Below are positions 38,437-46,475 of a DNA stretch of 64,000 nucleotides, piece after piece. Under the pieces are notes generated by a model, which saw only the letters and a list, made by a program, of their open reading frames with translations, searched no databases and had not been told where the DNA came from. The stretch comes from Mameliella sp. MMSF_3455 (GTDB taxonomy: Bacteria; Pseudomonadota; Alphaproteobacteria; Rhodobacterales; Rhodobacteraceae): assembly GCF_030733205.1 (NCBI RefSeq), contig NZ_JASHJL010000020.1, positions 1-64,000 on the forward strand, written 5' to 3'. The position numbers were made by a program, and so were the translations under genes. Each line of letters starts with the position of its first letter. The stretch's first letter is position 1.

Positions 38437-38629
38437 GACACGCCCCCGCACGATTCGGCACGACCCTATGACAGGCGGATCACAGGATCACGACAGGCGC
38501 GGCATCAGCGGACGGCGGGCATCTACGGCTTGCATGTCATCCGCACACAGGCCAATGACACCGGCAAATTGACAAGCGGCGCGGGTGCGGCAACTGTGCC
38601 ACCAGCCAAAACCGACAGGGGGATTTCCG

Positions 38630-39445
38630 ATGAAACTCATGACATTCACCGCGCTGGCCTGCGGCCTTGCGGGTGCCGCGCTGGCCCAGGACGACTGTGC
38701 CGCCGGCAAGACCCTGACAGACGGCGTGCTGACCATCGCCACCGGCAATCCCGCCTATTATCCTTGGGTGCTGGATGACGCCCCCGAAAGCGGCAAGGGC
38801 TTCGAGGCGGCGGTGGCCTATGCGCTGGCCGAGGAAATGGGATTTACCGCCGACCAGGTCACCTGGGTGCGCACGTCCTTTGACCAGTCGATCCAACCCG
38901 GCGCCAAGAATTTCGACGTCAACCTGCAACAGTTCTCGATCACCGAGGAACGCGAGAAGATCGTCGATTTCTCCGATCCCTACTACAGTTCCGCGATGGC
39001 GGTCCTGACCACGCAATCCGTGGTCGATGGCGGGGCGCAACCGACCGTGGCCAGCCTGAAAACCCTGCTCTGGGGGGCTGATGCCAACACCACCGCCGTA
39101 CCGATGCTGATGGATCTGATCGGCCCGGACAAGCAGCCGATGCTTTACGACGACAACGTCGACGTCACCGCCGCCATGCAGGCTGGCCAGATCGACGCCG
39201 CGCTCTTTGACCTGCCGACCGCGCTTTATCTCTCTGCCGTGGTGGTGGAAAACGGCACGATCCTCGGCCAGTTCCCGCCGGAACGCAGCGACAACCCGGA
39301 CCAGTTCGGCCTGTTGATGGAAGAAGGCAGCCCGCTCAAGACCTGCGTCAACGAGGCCCTGGCCGCGCTTAAGGACAGCGGCAAGCTGGCCGAGATCGAG
39401 GCGGAGTGGCTGCAGGACGCCACCGGCGTTCCGGTCATCGAGTAA
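38630..39445 (+). CDS. Polar amino acid ABC transporter, substrate-binding protein
   Basis: A 271-residue periplasmic binding protein with a signal peptide (MKLMTFTALACGLAGAALA) and a type II binding fold. Typical motifs are GKGFEAAVAYALAEEMGF, DFSDPYYSSAMAV, and an aspartate in DAALFDLPTALYL. Cysteines near residues 23 and 245 may pair. It feeds the permease and ATPase encoded next. A 17-bp hairpin separates it from the permease gene. Confidence 0.94.
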   Translation: MKLMTFTALACGLAGAALAQDDCAAGKTLTDGVLTIATGNPAYYPWVLDDAPESGKGFEAAVAYALAEEMGFTADQVTWVRTSFDQSIQPGAKNFDVNLQQFSITEEREKIVDFSDPYYSSAMAVLTTQSVVDGGAQPTVASLKTLLWGADANTTAVPMLMDLIGPDKQPMLYDDNVDVTAAMQAGQIDAALFDLPTALYLSAVVVENGTILGQFPPERSDNPDQFGLLMEEGSPLKTCVNEALAALKDSGKLAEIEAEWLQDATGVPVIE

Positions 39446-39487
39446 TCGCCAGACGCCCCCCGGCGTTCTTGGCTTTCCAAGTACCTC

Positions 39488-39523
39488 GGGGGAGCGGGGC
39501 AGAGCCCTCTGCCCCGCTCCCCC
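39488..39523. terminator. Perfect 17-bp hairpin between binding-protein and permease genes
   Basis: A perfect inverted repeat, GGGGGAGCGGGGCAGAG followed by its complement, with almost no loop. Just upstream (39466-39487) is a degenerate form of the window's 3'-end repeat (TTCTTGGCTTTCC, then AAGTACCTC). In a plus-strand operon it probably causes partial termination or 3'-end protection of the binding-protein message. Confidence 0.65.
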
Positions 39524-39541
39524 TCGCCTGACGGACAATTG

Positions 39542-40354
39542 ATGCCCACCCGCAGACAGATCTTCGAGACCCGCCAGCGCAGACGCGCAAACCTGATCGC
39601 CGCCGGTTCGACCCTGGCGGTTGTCTTGGCCATCGTCCTCCTGGTGCCGCTCGCGCCCGGCTGGGACCGCGTCCAGCGCAGCTTTTTCAACGGTGAGGTC
39701 TTTGCCAAGACCTTTCCGGGCCTGCTCGAGGCCTTCCTGCTGGACATCGCGATCTTTGCCTGGTGCGCCCCTCTGATCGCGGCACTCGGTCTTGCGGTGG
39801 CTATTGCGCGTGACCTGCGTACGCCCGCGCTCTACCCGGTGAAACTGGCGGCAATCCTCTACACGGACATCTTTCGCGGGTTGCCGGTGATCCTGGTCAT
39901 CTACCTGATCGGCTTCGGCATTCCCGGGCTTGGCCTGCCGCGCCCGTGGAATTCACCGTATATCTGGGGGTCGCTGGCACTGATCCTCGTCTACGCAGCC
40001 TATGTCGCCGAGGTCATCCGTTCGGGCATCGAGTCGATCCACGAGAGCCAGCGCGCGGCGGCGCTGTCGCTGGGCCTGTCCACGTCCGACAGCATGCGGT
40101 TCGTGATCCTGCCGCAGGCGATCCGCCGCGTGGTGCCCGCCAACATGAACCTTTTCATCGCGCTGCAAAAGGACGTGGCGCTGCTCAGCTTCATCGGCCC
40201 GGTCGAAATCTTCCGACAGGCGGGCGTCTACAAATCGCTGCTGGCGAATTTCACGCCCTACGTCGGCGCCGCGCTGATTTTCTTGGCGATCACGATCCCC
40301 GCGACCCGCTATGCCGACCACCTCATGAACCGCCAGCGCAAGGCCCGCAGCTGA
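39542..40354 (+). CDS. Amino acid ABC transporter permease
   Basis: A 270-residue HisM/GlnP-type permease. One N-terminal membrane helix is followed by the conserved permease domain. The cytoplasmic EAA-type loop is seen as [20 protein letters not shown], followed by [17 protein letters not shown]. Only one permease gene is present, so it probably acts as a homodimer. Its stop overlaps the next start (TGATG). The ATG rather than an adjacent TTG is used. Confidence 0.94.
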
Positions 40355-41082
40355 TGACGACACTGTCCCTGAAAAACGTCCGCAAGAGCTTTGGCGGCAA
40401 CGACGTCCTGCGCGGCATCGACCTGGACATCACCACGGGTCAGATGATCTGCCTGATCGGCGCATCCGGGTCCGGCAAGTCCACGCTGCTGCGCTGTCTG
40501 AACCTGCTGGAACCGATCGACGACGGCACCATCACGCTCGACGGCACGGACATCTCCGAGCCCGGCTTCAACCCGCAGCCGGTGCGCCAGCGCATCGGCA
40601 TGGTCTTCCAGAGCTACAACCTGTTCCCCCACATGACGGCGATGGACAACGCCATGCTGGCACCGCGCCGCATCCACGGCCTCGGCCGGGCCGAACTGGA
40701 ACCGCGAATTGCCGAGCTTTTCACCCGTTTCGGCCTGGGCGAACGGATGCAGCACTATCCCGACCAGTTGTCCGGCGGGCAGCAACAGCGGGTCGCCATC
40801 GTGCGGGCACTGGCCATGCGGCCAGAAATCATGCTGTTCGACGAAATCACATCGGCGCTGGACCCCGAACTGGTGGGCGAGGTGCTGGACGTTCTGCGGC
40901 AACTCAGGACCGAAGGCATGACGATGGTCCTTGCAACGCACGAGATGGGTTTTGCGCGCGAATTGGCGGACACGGTCTGCTTTCTCGACCAGGGCCGCAT
41001 TCTCGAATCCGGCCCGCCCTCACAGGTCTTCGGTGCGCCGCAAGAGGCCCGCACGCGGGCCTTCCTGTCCCGCGTCTTGTAG
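40354..41082 (+). CDS. Amino acid ABC transporter ATP-binding protein
   Basis: A 242-residue GlnQ/HisP-type ATPase. Walker A is GASGSGKST. The signature is [15 protein letters not shown]. Walker B is [28 protein letters not shown] carries the switch histidine. It completes the three-gene importer and is coupled to the permease by overlapping codons. A long upstream frame overlapping the permease is not coding. Confidence 0.95.
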
Positions 41083-41235
41083 GCCTCGGGCACGCCTACC
41101 CCGCCTGCACCCTCTCAAATGCCCGAATTTGCCCGACTTTTTGCAGGGTCGGGTTTTCCTTCGTTGACGCAACGGCCCCTTCTGAACAAACTGAAATCAT
41201 CTTGTTGATGAACCTTTTTTCGAAGGACTGATACC

Positions 41236-43116
41236 GTGCGTACCGCCGCTGCATTGTCCACACTGATCACCGCGCTGGGGCTGGCTGCCTTTGCGCCCGT
41301 TCAGACCCGGGCGCAGGAGTTCGTCGGCTTCGACCGGACGAGCTTTGGCAGTGTCGTTCTGCGCCGCAACCAGGCGGCTGGCGGCGGCAGTGACATCAAC
41401 TTCGAACTGGCGGTCGGCGCATACAACAACGAGCCGATCCTGAACTACTCGCCCAACAGCGTTTTTTCCAAGATGGGGCTGGCCGTGGGCCGCCTGGACA
41501 TCCTGACGGATACCGGCGTCTATCCCTGCACCGCCTTCATCGTGGACGACAAGCACATCCTGACCAATCACCACTGCGTGCCCGGCATCCTCGACAATGA
41601 ACGCGCCGGCGCCACACGGATCGACTCGATCCTCTTCGTGGCCGGCTACCGCCAGCCCGGCGTCGACGAAGGCACACGGCGCTATACCGTCGTGCCGACG
41701 CCGGTCGAAACCTCCAAGGAACTCGATTACGCCGTGCTCGAGGTGATCGGTGATCCTTCGGCCGATTACGGCACGCTGGACCTGGCCGCCGTCACCCCGC
41801 AGGACAACGATCCCTACTGGGTCATCGGCCACCCGATGGGTGAGGCCCAACGCATCAGCCGCGAGAAATGCCGCGCCAATTCGCCGGCCCTGTCGAACCG
41901 CCAGTTGCTGCACACCTGCGACACGCTGCCGGGCAACTCAGGCTCACCGGTGATCGACGCCTCCCTGCAAAAGGTTGTCGGCCTGCATCATGCCGGGTCG
42001 AACCGCGACGCGGTCAACTATGCCATACCGATGGCCGATATCCTGGCCCAGTCACAGGTGCTCAAGGCTGCCGTCGTGCCCGGTGCCCCCGATCCGGTCA
42101 CGCCGCCGGCACCGGCGCCCAGCGACGAAGACAGCAGCCGGCCGCTGCCCCCGGAGGAAGTCGCACCAGAGCTCGCCCTTTGCGACGCGCTCTATGCCGA
42201 GGCCAAGGAATTCGGCGAATGCTTTGCCTACGAGGCCTACCTGCAGGTCTGCGGCGACCATAATTATTCGATCCTGGCCAAGTCCTTCGTCGCGCGTCAG
42301 TGCACCGTTGCCGACACGCCCAAGGAGCCGGTGCCCCCGGTGGTCGATACCCGTCCCGACGAGCCGCTGCTGTGGTGGTGCACCTCGCCCAACCTCAACA
42401 CCACCGAACGCACGATCTGCGGCGACCGCTATCTTGCCGGCCTCGACGAGGAAATGGAGCGCGCCTACAAGAATCCCGCTCGCCCGGTGAGCGCCTCGGA
42501 CCAGCAGACCTGGCGCATCAACACCCGCGACCGCTGTGGCGCAAACACCGACTGCATCTCGCGCGTGGTGATCGACCGGATCACCTACCTCAAGACGCCG
42601 GAAAAGGTGGTGACACCGCCGCCCAGCCGCACCGTCCCGATGTACGTCACCGGGACCGACAACCTGAACGTTCGCTCCGGACCGGGCACGCAATACGGCG
42701 TCATCAACCGGATCGACTTTGGCGACAAGGTGACCGTGCTGGACCGGAACGGCGGCTGGAGCAACGTGCGCCTTTCCAACGGTCAGGACGGCTGGGTCTC
42801 GAACCGCTACCTCGCCTCGGACAAGCCGCGCCAGCGTCCGGTAACGCAATGCACCGCCACGGTGGTGAACCTGAACCACTACAACAGCCGGACCCGCCGC
42901 GACGGCAGCGGCTTCCTGAACATCCGGACACAAGCCAGTACCCGCGGCCGGATCATCTCCGAGACTTATCTTGGCGACACTCTCAGAGTGCTGAACCACA
43001 GCGGCAACTGGGCCCAGGTCCGCTGCCTGTCGGGACAGTGCCGCAATCCCCATCGGGGCAGTGGCGGAGTGACCGGCTGGGCCTCGAAGAAGTACCTCTC
43101 GATCCGGTGCCAATAG
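41236..43116 (+). CDS. Secreted trypsin-like serine protease with LprI-like and two SH3 domains
   Basis: A 626-residue exported protein. A signal peptide (about 1-26) is followed by a trypsin-fold protease domain to about residue 285. The triad H113 (NHHC), D164 (ELDYAVL) and S235 (GNSGSPV) is intact. A Pro-rich linker follows. Next comes a Cys-rich LprI/DUF1311-like region at about 385-460 (WCTSPNLNTTERTICGDRYL). Two bacterial SH3 domains complete the protein (about 475-530 and 540-620; DNLNVRSGPGTQYGVI, FLNIRTQASTRGRI). SH3 domains of this type often bind cell wall. It is the first gene of a three-gene operon. Confidence 0.88.
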   Translation: MRTAAALSTLITALGLAAFAPVQTRAQEFVGFDRTSFGSVVLRRNQAAGGGSDINFELAVGAYNNEPILNYSPNSVFSKMGLAVGRLDILTDTGVYPCTAFIVDDKHILTNHHCVPGILDNERAGATRIDSILFVAGYRQPGVDEGTRRYTVVPTPVETSKELDYAVLEVIGDPSADYGTLDLAAVTPQDNDPYWVIGHPMGEAQRISREKCRANSPALSNRQLLHTCDTLPGNSGSPVIDASLQKVVGLHHAGSNRDAVNYAIPMADILAQSQVLKAAVVPGAPDPVTPPAPAPSDEDSSRPLPPEEVAPELALCDALYAEAKEFGECFAYEAYLQVCGDHNYSILAKSFVARQCTVADTPKEPVPPVVDTRPDEPLLWWCTSPNLNTTERTICGDRYLAGLDEEMERAYKNPARPVSASDQQTWRINTRDRCGANTDCISRVVIDRITYLKTPEKVVTPPPSRTVPMYVTGTDNLNVRSGPGTQYGVINRIDFGDKVTVLDRNGGWSNVRLSNGQDGWVSNRYLASDKPRQRPVTQCTATVVNLNHYNSRTRRDGSGFLNIRTQASTRGRIISETYLGDTLRVLNHSGNWAQVRCLSGQCRNPHRGSGGVTGWASKKYLSIRCQ

Positions 43117-43159
43117 TTCGAATTTCACCCCAATCCCTCTTTGAACAGGAGAAGATGTT

Positions 43160-45664
43160 ATGCAACCCAACGACCTGATGAAGGTGAGCGTCATCGCCCT
43201 GACCGCTGCCTTCGCCCTGCCCGCTTCGGCGCAGGATCAGACCAAGCTGATCGATCCTGAAGACGTCGATTACGCCCTGCCGGCGGACGCGACCGCCCAG
43301 GAAAAGGCCGCATACGCGGTCCTGGACAAATACTGTGCCGACTGCCACCAGCAGGGCGCACTTGGCGACGGGCTGACCACGCCGAAGGCGGGCTTCGGCC
43401 ACGTCCTCGACCTGCGCCGCCTGTCCAACGACCCCAAGTTCGTGGCCGTGGGCGAACCGTCCAAGTCCAAGCTGTACCAGGTCATCACCGGCGGCGCGCC
43501 GGCGATGCCGGACAACTGCTGGGACCCCAGCTGCGTGCCGAACGAGGCCGAGCTGCAACAGCTTCAGGACTGGATCGTCGCGCTGGGTGACCTGGCCCCC
43601 GAGCCGCGCACCTACATTTCGCTGGCCGAGATGTATGCGATGGCCCATGCCGACATGCAGAGCCTGCCGACCAACCGTCGCGACCGCGTCCGCTATATCT
43701 CGATGCGGCCGATGTGGAACGACCCGGATGTCACAGACGAAAACTACACCGCCTACCTGGCTGCAACCGTCAAGCTGCTGAACGCGCTGAGCTGGAACCC
43801 CAACGTCTACAAGTTCGAAAAGGTCGACGATCACGGCATTCTGCTGCGCGTCTTCCTGCCCGATCTCGACTGGACGCACGAAACCTGGGGCTACCTCGAA
43901 GCCAAGTATCCCTACGGCATGGAAAGCGACACCGACCCTTACCTGGGTTCACTGCAGCACCTGGCCGGAACCAAGATCCCGGTCATCCGCGCCGATTGGT
44001 TCGCCGCGACCGCGTCGGTCTCGCCCCTGTACTATGACATGCTGGGCCTGCCGGATACCGTGGCCGGGCTGGAAAAGCTGCTGAACCTCGACATGAAGAA
44101 GAACATCCTGAACGAGCAGGTCGTCCGCGCCGGCTTCCAGGACTCGGGCGTGTCGACACACAACCGCCTGATCGAACGGCACCCGATGGGCACCGGTTTC
44201 TTCTGGACCTCCTATGACTTTGCCGGATCGGCCAAACGCCAGAGCTTCTTCGAGTTCCCGCTGGGTCCGACAGAGGCCTACGGCCCCGATCTTGCCTTCC
44301 TGCATGACGGCGGCGAGTCGATCTTCACCCTGCCCAACGGCTTTCACGCCTACTACCTCAACACCGCCGAAGGTGATCGTCTGAACGTCGGCCCGACCTC
44401 GATCGTGCGCGACACCGATTATCCCGACGGCACCGGCGAGGTGGTCAACGGCATCTCGTGCATTTCGTGCCACTCCAAGGGCATGCGGTTCAACGACGAC
44501 ACCGTGCGTGACGTCGCCCTGAACAACCTGTCCCTGTCGGCCTCGGCGCGTCAGACCATCGACGCGATCTATCCGGGCAAGGACGTGGTGAACGAGTATT
44601 TCCAGCGTGACATGGAGGCCTTCCTGGCCACCCTGGAGAGCGCCGGGATCGAACCGGACACCAAGGCCGCCGGACTGGAACCGGTGCGCGGCCTCTTTGT
44701 CTATCACGTCGACTACTTCATCGACTTCGACCAGGCGGCCAACGAACTGGGCCTGACCTCGGATGCGCTGCGCAGCCGCATGGCCTTTGCCGGACACGAG
44801 ATGGCCAGCTTGCTGACCCGTCTCGACACCTCGCCGATCGCGCGGGATGAATGGACGGCGGCCTACCCGGTCCTGCTTGAGAAACTGACGGACTACTACC
44901 CGTACAAGACCGACCATGTCGTGACGGCGGACCTGTCCTACTCGGTCAAGCAGGTGGTCAAGGACACCGACTACGAGCCGCCGGCCAAGAAGGTGAAGGT
45001 GGTCAAGGACGATGGCTATGTCGACACCAAGGTCGTCAAGAAGGACGCCGACTACACGCCCACGGACAAGGACTACGTCGTGACCGGCAAGGAACCGATC
45101 AAGACGCATGACGACGCCAAGAAGTACGGCGCCGATTATGACCCGGTCCAGCACTCGGCCGCGGCCCAGAGCCACCTGACCGTCTACACGGACAAGCCCA
45201 CCTACAAGGTCGGAGACGAGTTGAAGGTCTTCATCGAACCGCGCCACGACTGCCGTCTGACGCTGATCTCGATCGACGACGACCACGACAGCTGCGTGCT
45301 GTACCCCTTCCCGGGCCTCGATGACATCGTCATCCCGGGCGGCACCCAGTACGTCTTCCCGCCGAAGGGCGCGCTGCGCACCTCGGAACCCGGGCTCGAG
45401 ACCATCCTGGCGATCTGCAACGGTGGCGACGCGGCCATCAAGAAGGCGACCCGCGATACCTCCAAGGTGTCCTGCGCAGCCGGTCACAAGACCGTCTCCA
45501 AGGATCACTACGAAGGCATCGTCAAGGAGACCCTTGTTCTTGACCTCGACACAGGCGCCAAGGACAAGAAACACACCGCCAGCGGCGTCGACTACCGCGC
45601 CGTTTCCAAACACAACCCGGACGTGACCAAGGCCCAGATCTCGGTCGTGGTCCGCGAATACTGA
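43160..45664 (+). CDS. Di-haem c-type cytochrome with C-terminal DUF4384 domain
   Basis: An 834-residue exported protein with a signal peptide ending near residue 25 (PASAQ). There are two haem c attachment sites, C59-A-D-C-H63 and C434-I-S-C-H438. The region between them has no family I recognise. Residues 597-650 are a Lys/Asp/Tyr/Val-rich linker with about four units resembling VVKxDxDY. Residues about 670-755 (YTDKPTYKVGDELKVFIEP, YPFPGLDDIVIPGG) match DUF4384, usually found attached to caspase-like or kinase modules. The CAGGAGAAG ribosome binding site fits the ATG at 43160. Confidence 0.85.
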   Translation: MQPNDLMKVSVIALTAAFALPASAQDQTKLIDPEDVDYALPADATAQEKAAYAVLDKYCADCHQQGALGDGLTTPKAGFGHVLDLRRLSNDPKFVAVGEPSKSKLYQVITGGAPAMPDNCWDPSCVPNEAELQQLQDWIVALGDLAPEPRTYISLAEMYAMAHADMQSLPTNRRDRVRYISMRPMWNDPDVTDENYTAYLAATVKLLNALSWNPNVYKFEKVDDHGILLRVFLPDLDWTHETWGYLEAKYPYGMESDTDPYLGSLQHLAGTKIPVIRADWFAATASVSPLYYDMLGLPDTVAGLEKLLNLDMKKNILNEQVVRAGFQDSGVSTHNRLIERHPMGTGFFWTSYDFAGSAKRQSFFEFPLGPTEAYGPDLAFLHDGGESIFTLPNGFHAYYLNTAEGDRLNVGPTSIVRDTDYPDGTGEVVNGISCISCHSKGMRFNDDTVRDVALNNLSLSASARQTIDAIYPGKDVVNEYFQRDMEAFLATLESAGIEPDTKAAGLEPVRGLFVYHVDYFIDFDQAANELGLTSDALRSRMAFAGHEMASLLTRLDTSPIARDEWTAAYPVLLEKLTDYYPYKTDHVVTADLSYSVKQVVKDTDYEPPAKKVKVVKDDGYVDTKVVKKDADYTPTDKDYVVTGKEPIKTHDDAKKYGADYDPVQHSAAAQSHLTVYTDKPTYKVGDELKVFIEPRHDCRLTLISIDDDHDSCVLYPFPGLDDIVIPGGTQYVFPPKGALRTSEPGLETILAICNGGDAAIKKATRDTSKVSCAAGHKTVSKDHYEGIVKETLVLDLDTGAKDKKHTASGVDYRAVSKHNPDVTKAQISVVVREY

Positions 45665-45677
45665 GGAGATGAGAGCG

Positions 45678-46475
45678 ATGCGAAAGCTTTTCCTGAGCGT
45701 CGCTCTCTGCCTTGGCCTGCCCCCTGCGGCAGGCCTTGCGCAGCAGGGCGAGATCTTCATCCAGGGTGACGACCCGATCATGTCGTTCAAACCCGAACCG
45801 CAAAGCGCGATGGCGCGGTGCCTTCTGAACTCGAACGCCGGCAATTGTGCCGGTGTGGACATCGACCCGGACGGAATCGCGCTGGAAAGCGCGGGACCCG
45901 GCGTGGAGTTCGAAACGCTGGTGCTGGACCTCGACAACAAGAAAGTCACTGTCAGCAAGGCTCCCCCGCCGACCCCGACCTACACCGACACGGCGAAACC
46001 CAAGCCGCAGGAACCCGTGACGGCACGCTACGACGAGCCGAAGCCGCTGGACTATGACGCGCCCGCGCCGCCCAAGACGGGCAAGGTTGTCATTCCGTCG
46101 GTCGCGATCACGATCGAGTTCGATTACGACAGCGACAATGTGCGGGCCGACCAGAGCGGCAAGATCGACACGTTGATCGCCGCGTTGAGCGATCCGGCGC
46201 TGAAGGGCACCTCCTACGCGGTCGTGGGGCATACCGATGCCGTCGGTTCGGCTGGGTACAATTGCGACCTCAGCCTGCGCCGCGCGGCCTCGGTCACGCG
46301 GATCCTCGAAGGGGCCTATGTCGGTGTGCCGCTCTACCCGGTCGGCTGGGGAGAGCACGTTCTCAAGAACGAGGCCTATCCGGATGCACCGGAGAACCGC
46401 CGCGTCACCTTCCTGCGCCTGCCCAACACGCCGGGCGCGGTGTTGCAGACCGCGACAAAGGTCTGCGAGTATTAA
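45678..46475 (+). CDS. OmpA-like outer-membrane/peptidoglycan-binding protein
   Basis: A 265-residue exported protein. A signal peptide (MRKLFLSVALCLGLPPAAGL) is followed by an acidic region, then a Pro/Thr/Lys-rich linker (about residues 95-135). The C-terminal OmpA domain follows (IEFDYDSDNVRADQSGKID, VVGHTDAVGSAGYNCDLSLR). The conserved peptidoglycan-binding Asp and Arg positions appear present, but a cysteine replaces part of the usual N-L-LS stretch. It lies 13 bases after the cytochrome-DUF4384 gene and is followed by a terminator. Confidence 0.9.
   Translation: MRKLFLSVALCLGLPPAAGLAQQGEIFIQGDDPIMSFKPEPQSAMARCLLNSNAGNCAGVDIDPDGIALESAGPGVEFETLVLDLDNKKVTVSKAPPPTPTYTDTAKPKPQEPVTARYDEPKPLDYDAPAPPKTGKVVIPSVAITIEFDYDSDNVRADQSGKIDTLIAALSDPALKGTSYAVVGHTDAVGSAGYNCDLSLRRAASVTRILEGAYVGVPLYPVGWGEHVLKNEAYPDAPENRRVTFLRLPNTPGAVLQTATKVCEY

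Follow-up and report, generated by a model that had tools for sequence, protein, structure and literature searches.

Within the window, a 64,000-nucleotide stretch of Mameliella sp. MMSF_3455 (contig NZ_JASHJL010000020.1, positions 1 to 64,000; our contig C25 of a genome of ~5.7 Mb), positions 41236-46475 hold three consecutive genes for a trypsin-like protease, a two-haem cytochrome with a DUF4384 domain, and an OmpA-domain protein, an arrangement that is confirmed here. Comparison with other genomes supports the view that these genes belong together as a conserved unit, and that the trypsin-like protease stands in for the caspase found beside related cytochromes, an exchange that appears as one split in the cytochrome tree. 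The overall interpretation offered in a preliminary description, made from the DNA alone, is partly supported. Judged by the trio, the closest named relatives are Mameliella, Maliponia, and Antarctobacter; Mameliella alba CGMCC 1.7290 and Antarctobacter heliothermus DSM 11445 each carry all three genes. The genes and their parts are as follows.

41236-43116, + strand: gene 1, trypsin-like protease, 626 residues, GTG start, signal-peptide-like N-terminus (open reading frame and Pfam)
41527-41985, + strand: Trypsin_2 domain, residues 98-250, with His113, Asp164, and Ser235 (Pfam 4.1e-19)
42367-42600, + strand: LprI-like segment, residues 378-455, aligning with the L066 caspase tail and the LprI stretches of an L064 caspase
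42658-42813, + strand: first SH3_3 domain, residues 475-526 (Pfam 2.2e-29 over two stretches)
42841-43113, + strand: second SH3-like region, residues ~536-626, limits approximate (second SH3_3 stretch)
43160-45664, + strand: gene 2, two-haem cytochrome with DUF4384, 834 residues, signal-peptide-like N-terminus (open reading frame and Pfam)
43334-43348, + strand: haem c site 1, CADCH, residues 59-63, inside a Cytochrome_CBB3 domain (Pfam 1.1e-6)
43607-44959, + strand: conserved core, residues 150-600 (neither a solved relative nor a Pfam family over cut-off)
44459-44473, + strand: haem c site 2, CISCH, residues 434-438 (CxxCH motif)
45200-45418, + strand: DUF4384 domain, residues 681-753 (Pfam 1.3e-7, over cut-off)
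45669-46475, + strand: gene 3, OmpA-domain protein, 268 residues from the first ATG, start more likely 45678, signal-peptide-like N-terminus (open reading frame and Pfam)
46119-46355, + strand: OmpA domain, residues 151-229 (Pfam 1.3e-10)

The protease gene ends 43 bases before the cytochrome gene, and the cytochrome gene ends 4 bases before the first ATG of the OmpA gene or 13 before the next (45678). We favour the later start, since the corresponding frames in L016, L017, and L018 first open there, although those in L019 and L020 have a start codon at the earlier position; the gaps of 43 and 13 bases given in the preliminary description thus agree with the coordinates, the second from the likelier start. 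All three N-termini resemble cleavable signal peptides, as had been proposed (best 15-residue hydropathy 1.9-2.1, cleavage sites judged by eye). The domain assignments also stand: Trypsin_2 (PF13365, 70.2 bits against a curated cut-off of 27.6) and both SH3_3 stretches exceed their Pfam cut-offs, as do Cytochrome_CBB3 and DUF4384 (PF14326, 32.0 bits against 27) on the protein with two CxxCH sites and OmpA (PF00691, 41.9 bits against 27.2) on the third protein.

Co-occurrence of the three genes

The cytochrome was found in nine of 61 genomes, our own included, and in all nine the trio is adjacent. In larger taxon samples, which overlap and each count our own genome, scoring covered only the few best candidates of each genome, which makes the counts lower bounds: at least 23 of 394 genomes in the family, at least 8 of 235 in the order, at least 2 of 385 in the class, and at least 4 of 398 in the phylum, where one of the four (G751) has a short partial relative. 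Sixteen of the family genomes carry the window type of the cytochrome (form A) and seven a sister type (form B), with one cytochrome match each.

A profile of the protease reaches E <= 1e-80 in 15 of the 394 family genomes, all of them within the 16 with a window-type cytochrome, and in none of the 378 without one, with scoring limited to the three top candidates in each genome. The hypergeometric chance of this overlap is 3e-26, a figure to be read with the kinship of the genomes in mind, as they are not independent draws. In the sixteenth form A genome, G925, the protease ends in a SPOR domain and matches the profile at 9.7e-34. Five other family genomes give matches of only 5.9e-24 to 1.2e-44, and none of the seven sister-form genomes reaches 1e-20.

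The same picture emerges at the level of loci, for which regions of ~15-23 kb were searched in all six frames with profiles built from these sets. Form A comprises 20 loci, eight of them close to the window, and form B comprises 15, seven of them from the genus of G932. A trypsin-type protease gene and an OmpA-domain gene accompany the form A cytochrome in all 20 loci. In 19 of them the protease gene precedes the cytochrome gene on the same strand (~0.7 kb away in L060); in L059 it converges from downstream. The preliminary description had asked about co-occurrence and had named independent occurrence in most relatives as refuting its reading. The family sample speaks against this refutation, as no protease at E <= 1e-80 is found there without the cytochrome.

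One of these loci, L021, comes from a record titled Enemella evansiae, an actinomycetote by name; its set sits at the contig position of that of G007, which belongs to the family of the window, and the title is probably wrong.

Trypsin-type and caspase-type sets

The two forms are told apart by their protease. Every form B locus has one or more caspase genes near the homologous cytochrome and no trypsin-profile match (15/15), whereas none of the 20 form A regions has a caspase-profile match and the window unit itself carries no Peptidase_C14 domain; matches to that family are found elsewhere in our genome, outside the trio. Pfam confirmed Peptidase_C14 in six form B loci (L023 and L062-L066), and the other caspases were assigned by an in-house profile. 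The caspase His and Cys are kept in all 25 form B domains aligned, after four of 29 frames had been dropped (one cut by a region edge, three weak). Likewise, the His/Asp/Ser triad, read by eye, is kept in all 20 aligned trypsin domains of form A. The cytochromes differ as well: CxxCH sites number exactly two in every form A locus (20 loci) and exactly four in every form B locus (15 loci); in the three proteins scanned, the two extra haem sites of form B lie within N-terminal Cytochrom_C domains.

A ferric-reductase-like gene is present in all 15 form B regions, directly adjoining the cytochrome in eight; Pfam Ferric_reduct was checked on L023 only. A search of the 23 family genomes with the ferric-reductase-like protein of L063 gave a best match of E <= 2.1e-60 in all seven form B genomes, directly beside the cytochrome in six and ~6 kb away in G932. 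Among the 16 form A genomes, six carry a relative at another place (E <= 3.3e-50), and our own has only a partial match (4.3e-10). The four haem sites and the presence of the gene in all form B regions suggest that electron supply to this cytochrome matters.

Despite their different heads, the proteases of the two forms may share a tail. The C-terminal 249 residues of the window protease align with the tail of the form B caspase of L066 over 270 columns, 78 of them identical (29%), with an E of 8e-19 from a single pairwise comparison and a probability of 98.9 in a profile comparison. In-house tail profiles also match caspases in L106 and L107. Pfam places LprI stretches on one caspase of L064 and two SH3_3 stretches on another, and does not call LprI on segment 378-455 of the window protease. 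As judged from these alignments, the protease head differs between the forms, and the tail and the cytochrome are related.

A tree of 25 cytochrome cores parts the two forms at a single branch with a support of 100/99; the branch of L066 is very long, and the midpoint root serves for drawing only and gives no order of the forms. Since the tree splits once, the sorting of 16 against seven genomes (chance 4e-6 if they were independent) counts as one event and not as 23, and independent, repeated swaps of the protease are rejected on the same ground. The earlier suggestion that a trypsin-like protease takes the place of a caspase accordingly holds in that caspases lie near the cytochrome in all 15 sister loci, one of them with a similar tail, and fails for any reading as recurrent replacement.

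One example is the sister set on a Neorhizobium petrolearium plasmid (NZ_CP123001, L023), whose cytochrome is homologous to that of the window (30% identical, with 85% of the query covered). It likewise has a DUF4384 region, below the Pfam cut-off there, and OmpA and protease genes nearby, but differs in having a caspase instead of a trypsin, four haem sites, and a ferric-reductase-like gene.

Separately, two sister-form caspases (L063:4020-5591 and L065:9454-11025) carry a C-terminal NADase_transloc domain of the F5/8 type C kind.

Related arrangements have been described. In the parts of the published survey considered here, metacaspase operons with an OmpA domain account for 14 of 217 operons (Asplund-Samuelsson, 2012; PMC3501461). 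As in the window, protease and OmpA domain there belong to one predicted operon, but the window has a trypsin-like head and a two-haem DUF4384 partner, and the words "cytochrome" and "trypsin" are absent from the text of that paper. The same survey, in those parts, describes caspase homologues as abundant in Alphaproteobacteria and does not settle what many of their operons do. DUF4384 is found on cyanobacterial orthocaspases, according to the portion of PMC7475262 consulted. Trypsin-type and caspase-type peptidases are mutually exclusive in intracellular ternary conflict systems, as stated in the sections used of Kaur (2020; PMC7159879). These VMAP/MoxR-vWA systems are like the window and sister sets in that trypsin and caspase exchange in the same position, but they contain MoxR and vWA, neither of which gave a Pfam match in the six proteins scanned here (the trio and three neighbours), and the window proteins look exported. 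As far as these partly consulted sources go, caspase operons with OmpA (2012) and the trypsin/caspase exchange in conflict systems (2020) are already known, and the window trio is a variant. We recognized no description of the three-gene combination in a literature search that worked mostly by titles and the beginnings of abstracts and that most subscription journals fell outside.

The pair of sets offers a clean comparison: around homologous cytochromes, one kind has caspases plus a reductase-like gene and the other has trypsin and lacks that gene, with the redox part constant and the protease changed. Control of such bacterial caspases thereby becomes a testable question in ordinary marine strains.

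Protein features and possible functions

The gene 2 product has the CxxCH motifs and signal-like N-terminus of a c-type cytochrome, and haem binding is predicted. In an alignment of 27 rows, Cys59, Cys62, and His63 of the first haem site and Cys434, Cys437, and His438 of the second are invariant in every row, as are Cys698 and Cys753 of DUF4384 and many residues of the core, including Asp383, Glu386, Tyr398, and Tyr399.

A 542-residue relative at L050 (7437-9062) has the N-terminal haem region and DUF4384 with hardly any core. No protease-profile match accompanies it, and its neighbourhood includes what, judged by eye, are probably a sensor kinase and a response regulator.

What is said here of the trypsin, SH3, SPOR, LprI, and OmpA domains beyond their profile names is general background. 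Four window-type proteases (from the window, L021, L059, and L060) were scanned with Pfam. The SH3 domains of the window protease and a SPOR domain on that of L060 are consistent with wall binding. At L058 (2350-6816), tandem protease genes lie upstream of the cytochrome, and the LprI-like and SH3 tail profiles match the second only.

Envelope stress-sensing proteases of the DegS type have an activity under the control of a stress signal. Our leading guess, tentatively held, is that the trio is a wall-tethered extracytoplasmic protease unit with a haem-redox partner. The protease would be kept near peptidoglycan by its SH3 domains (or, in one relative, a SPOR domain), and the OmpA-domain protein would fasten the set to the wall. 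The N-terminal haem of the cytochrome might hand electrons to the core haem or sense its redox state, with DUF4384 linking the cytochrome to its partners. A change in haem redox state or ligand may then alter the protease, leading to cleavage of envelope proteins in a stress or damage response. The cytochrome would share a common ancestor with that of the caspase version, in which electrons may come from the ferric-reductase-like membrane protein by way of the two extra haem domains. What we observe are the genes, their domains and linkage, the triad, the haem motifs, and the different protease heads; that the proteins are exported, assemble into a complex, and gate the protease by redox state is what we infer, together with the substrates and the purpose of the trio.

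A number of results weigh against such a redox-gated unit. None of the 20 form A regions has a ferric-reductase-profile match, and 10 of the 16 form A genomes, our own among them, have no reductase relative better than 1.2e-18. Form A would therefore work without the linked donor, and dedicated electron flow is not needed there, which counts against a plain electron-flow mechanism for this form and is compatible with a role as a sensor. Even in form B, the reductase link is weaker in the seven loci of the G932 genus because the gene lies 4-6.5 kb away on the opposite strand. An OmpA domain adjoins the set in only six of the 15 form B loci (leaving aside a further one in L063, at the region edge and on the opposite strand). 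SH3 and LprI modules are common, and the shared protease tail could be independent re-use. The cytochrome core at residues 150-600 has no recognized fold: no Pfam family exceeds its cut-off there, and AlphaFold2, given seven rows that were too similar, returned a mean predicted local distance difference test score of 29.9 for the whole cytochrome and 31.6 for the core alone. Searches of the PDB point the same way, with a best match of E 1.5 for the cytochrome alone and none for the DUF4384 region; the best hit of a 25-row profile of the haem domain and core was FoxE (0.0032), confined to the N-terminal haem domain, and the next entry stood at 0.11. Interaction, haem loading, redox response, and proteolysis are predictions.

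A broader version of the redox-gated protease unit seems improbable as a whole: one redox cytochrome family of no recognized fold would command exchangeable protease heads, caspases with a membrane reductase in one form and trypsin without it in the other, as an electron-driven extracytoplasmic switch for death or stress.

We consider it unlikely that the trio is instead an envelope conflict or cell-death device, in which the protease would be an effector freed on attack by phage, predator, or neighbour and the cytochrome its trigger. The mutual exclusivity of the two peptidase types in ternary conflict systems argues for it, as does the proposal, in the consulted parts of PMC3501461, of cell-surface death or fratricide for bacterial caspases. 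The patchy distribution of the cytochrome, with at least 23 of 394 family genomes and at least 2 of 385 in the class (our own in both), fits too. PADLOC-DB 2.0.0, however, gave general domain matches only (RT-Protease_XI at 1.1e-11 and LmuA at 1.6e-5 for the trypsin domain, ZorB at 4e-6 for the OmpA domain) and none for the cytochrome, so that the trio does not qualify as a member of a listed system. Pfam found no nucleotide-binding domain in any of the three proteins. In 13 of 19 loci, moreover, the trio is preceded by ATP-binding cassette (ABC) transporter genes, which speaks more for vertical inheritance than for a mobile island.

The cytochrome could also be an enzyme, such as a peroxidase or reductase, with the protease as its processing or quality-control partner. 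The two haem sites, the strongly conserved core, and the ferric-reductase-like gene directly adjoining the cytochrome in eight sister loci would suit this idea, as would a weak likeness to CCP_MauG, the best Pfam match in the core (residues 430-603, E 0.004). Like di-haem cytochrome c peroxidase and MauG, the window cytochrome has two c-type haem sites; unlike them it scores below the family cut-off (PF03150, 18.2 bits against a curated 25.6) and adds DUF4384. The protease fold, furthermore, differs between the forms, and relatives of the protease occur elsewhere in the same genomes, which leaves an enzyme with a dedicated processing partner doubtful.

Nutrient scavenging, with the protease feeding the neighbouring amino-acid transporter, is very unlikely: it has in its favour the family-3 solute-binding protein and permease upstream in those 13 loci, but the trio is kept in the six of 19 loci where such neighbours were not found, and the cytochrome, the wall modules, and the caspase form would go unexplained.

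Flanking sequence and related proteases elsewhere

Two further features flank the trio.

41152-41168, + strand: promoter-like element GGTTTTCCTTCGTTGAC, with a TTGAC -35-like box, 67 bases 5' of the protease start codon
46482-46509, + strand: 12-pair hairpin 3' of the last gene, with no T run (-27.8 kcal/mol, z -4.5)

Of 19 window-type loci, 14 have the promoter-like element near the protease start, 12 of them as an exact copy and two with one mismatch; L056 and L058 have three mismatches, and the best sites in L051, L059, and L060 have four to six, which amounts to none. The element is present in L049 and L055, both without the upstream ABC transporter. Its position and retention fit a transcription unit that starts at gene 1. 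Allowing no or one mismatch, GGTTTTCCnnCGTTGAC has its sole match in the 5.7-Mb genome at 41152-41168, and the idea of a regulon was dropped as there is no other copy. A terminator listed by the scan at 41131-41154 was rejected, its left half being unconserved in L019, L021, and L022 and its right half overlapping the promoter-like element.

A terminator had also been proposed after the last gene. The hairpin there is strong, but it lacks a T run and is absent from the list of the terminator scan, and we call it terminator-like only. The upstream genes at 38585-41082 in the window encode a family-3 amino-acid ABC transporter; the counts of such neighbours rest on queries with its binding protein and its permease. 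The downstream neighbour, on the opposite strand, encodes a GFO/IDH/MocA oxidoreductase.

The protease profile yields a further match in 15 of the 16 form A genomes. In G896 it is a tandem copy inside the set, in G925 and G961 it is weak (~1e-21), and in G1061 the protease gene of the set is split into two profile matches. Our own genome has one copy with Sel1 repeats and a below-cut-off PG_binding_1, and another with a below-cut-off PG_binding_1.

Three other loci of our genome carry related proteins. On contig C48, a 278-residue trypsin-like protein (L079:9420-10256) lies immediately downstream of an active-looking relative, with its whole triad changed when read by eye (His to Asn, Asp to Asn, and Ser to Gln); the pair has the look of an inactive protease next to an active one. 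On contig C47, a 1125-residue frame with a C-terminal caspase domain adjoins a 540-residue frame with an OmpA domain (L081:1760-6757). On contig C57, a second protease set on one strand (L083:6162-11196) comprises a 338-residue trypsin, an OmpA domain, a 482-residue protein with a below-cut-off DUF4384, and a WD40-repeat protein with a caspase-like region (in-house profile, 2e-11), so that both kinds of protease are neighbours here.

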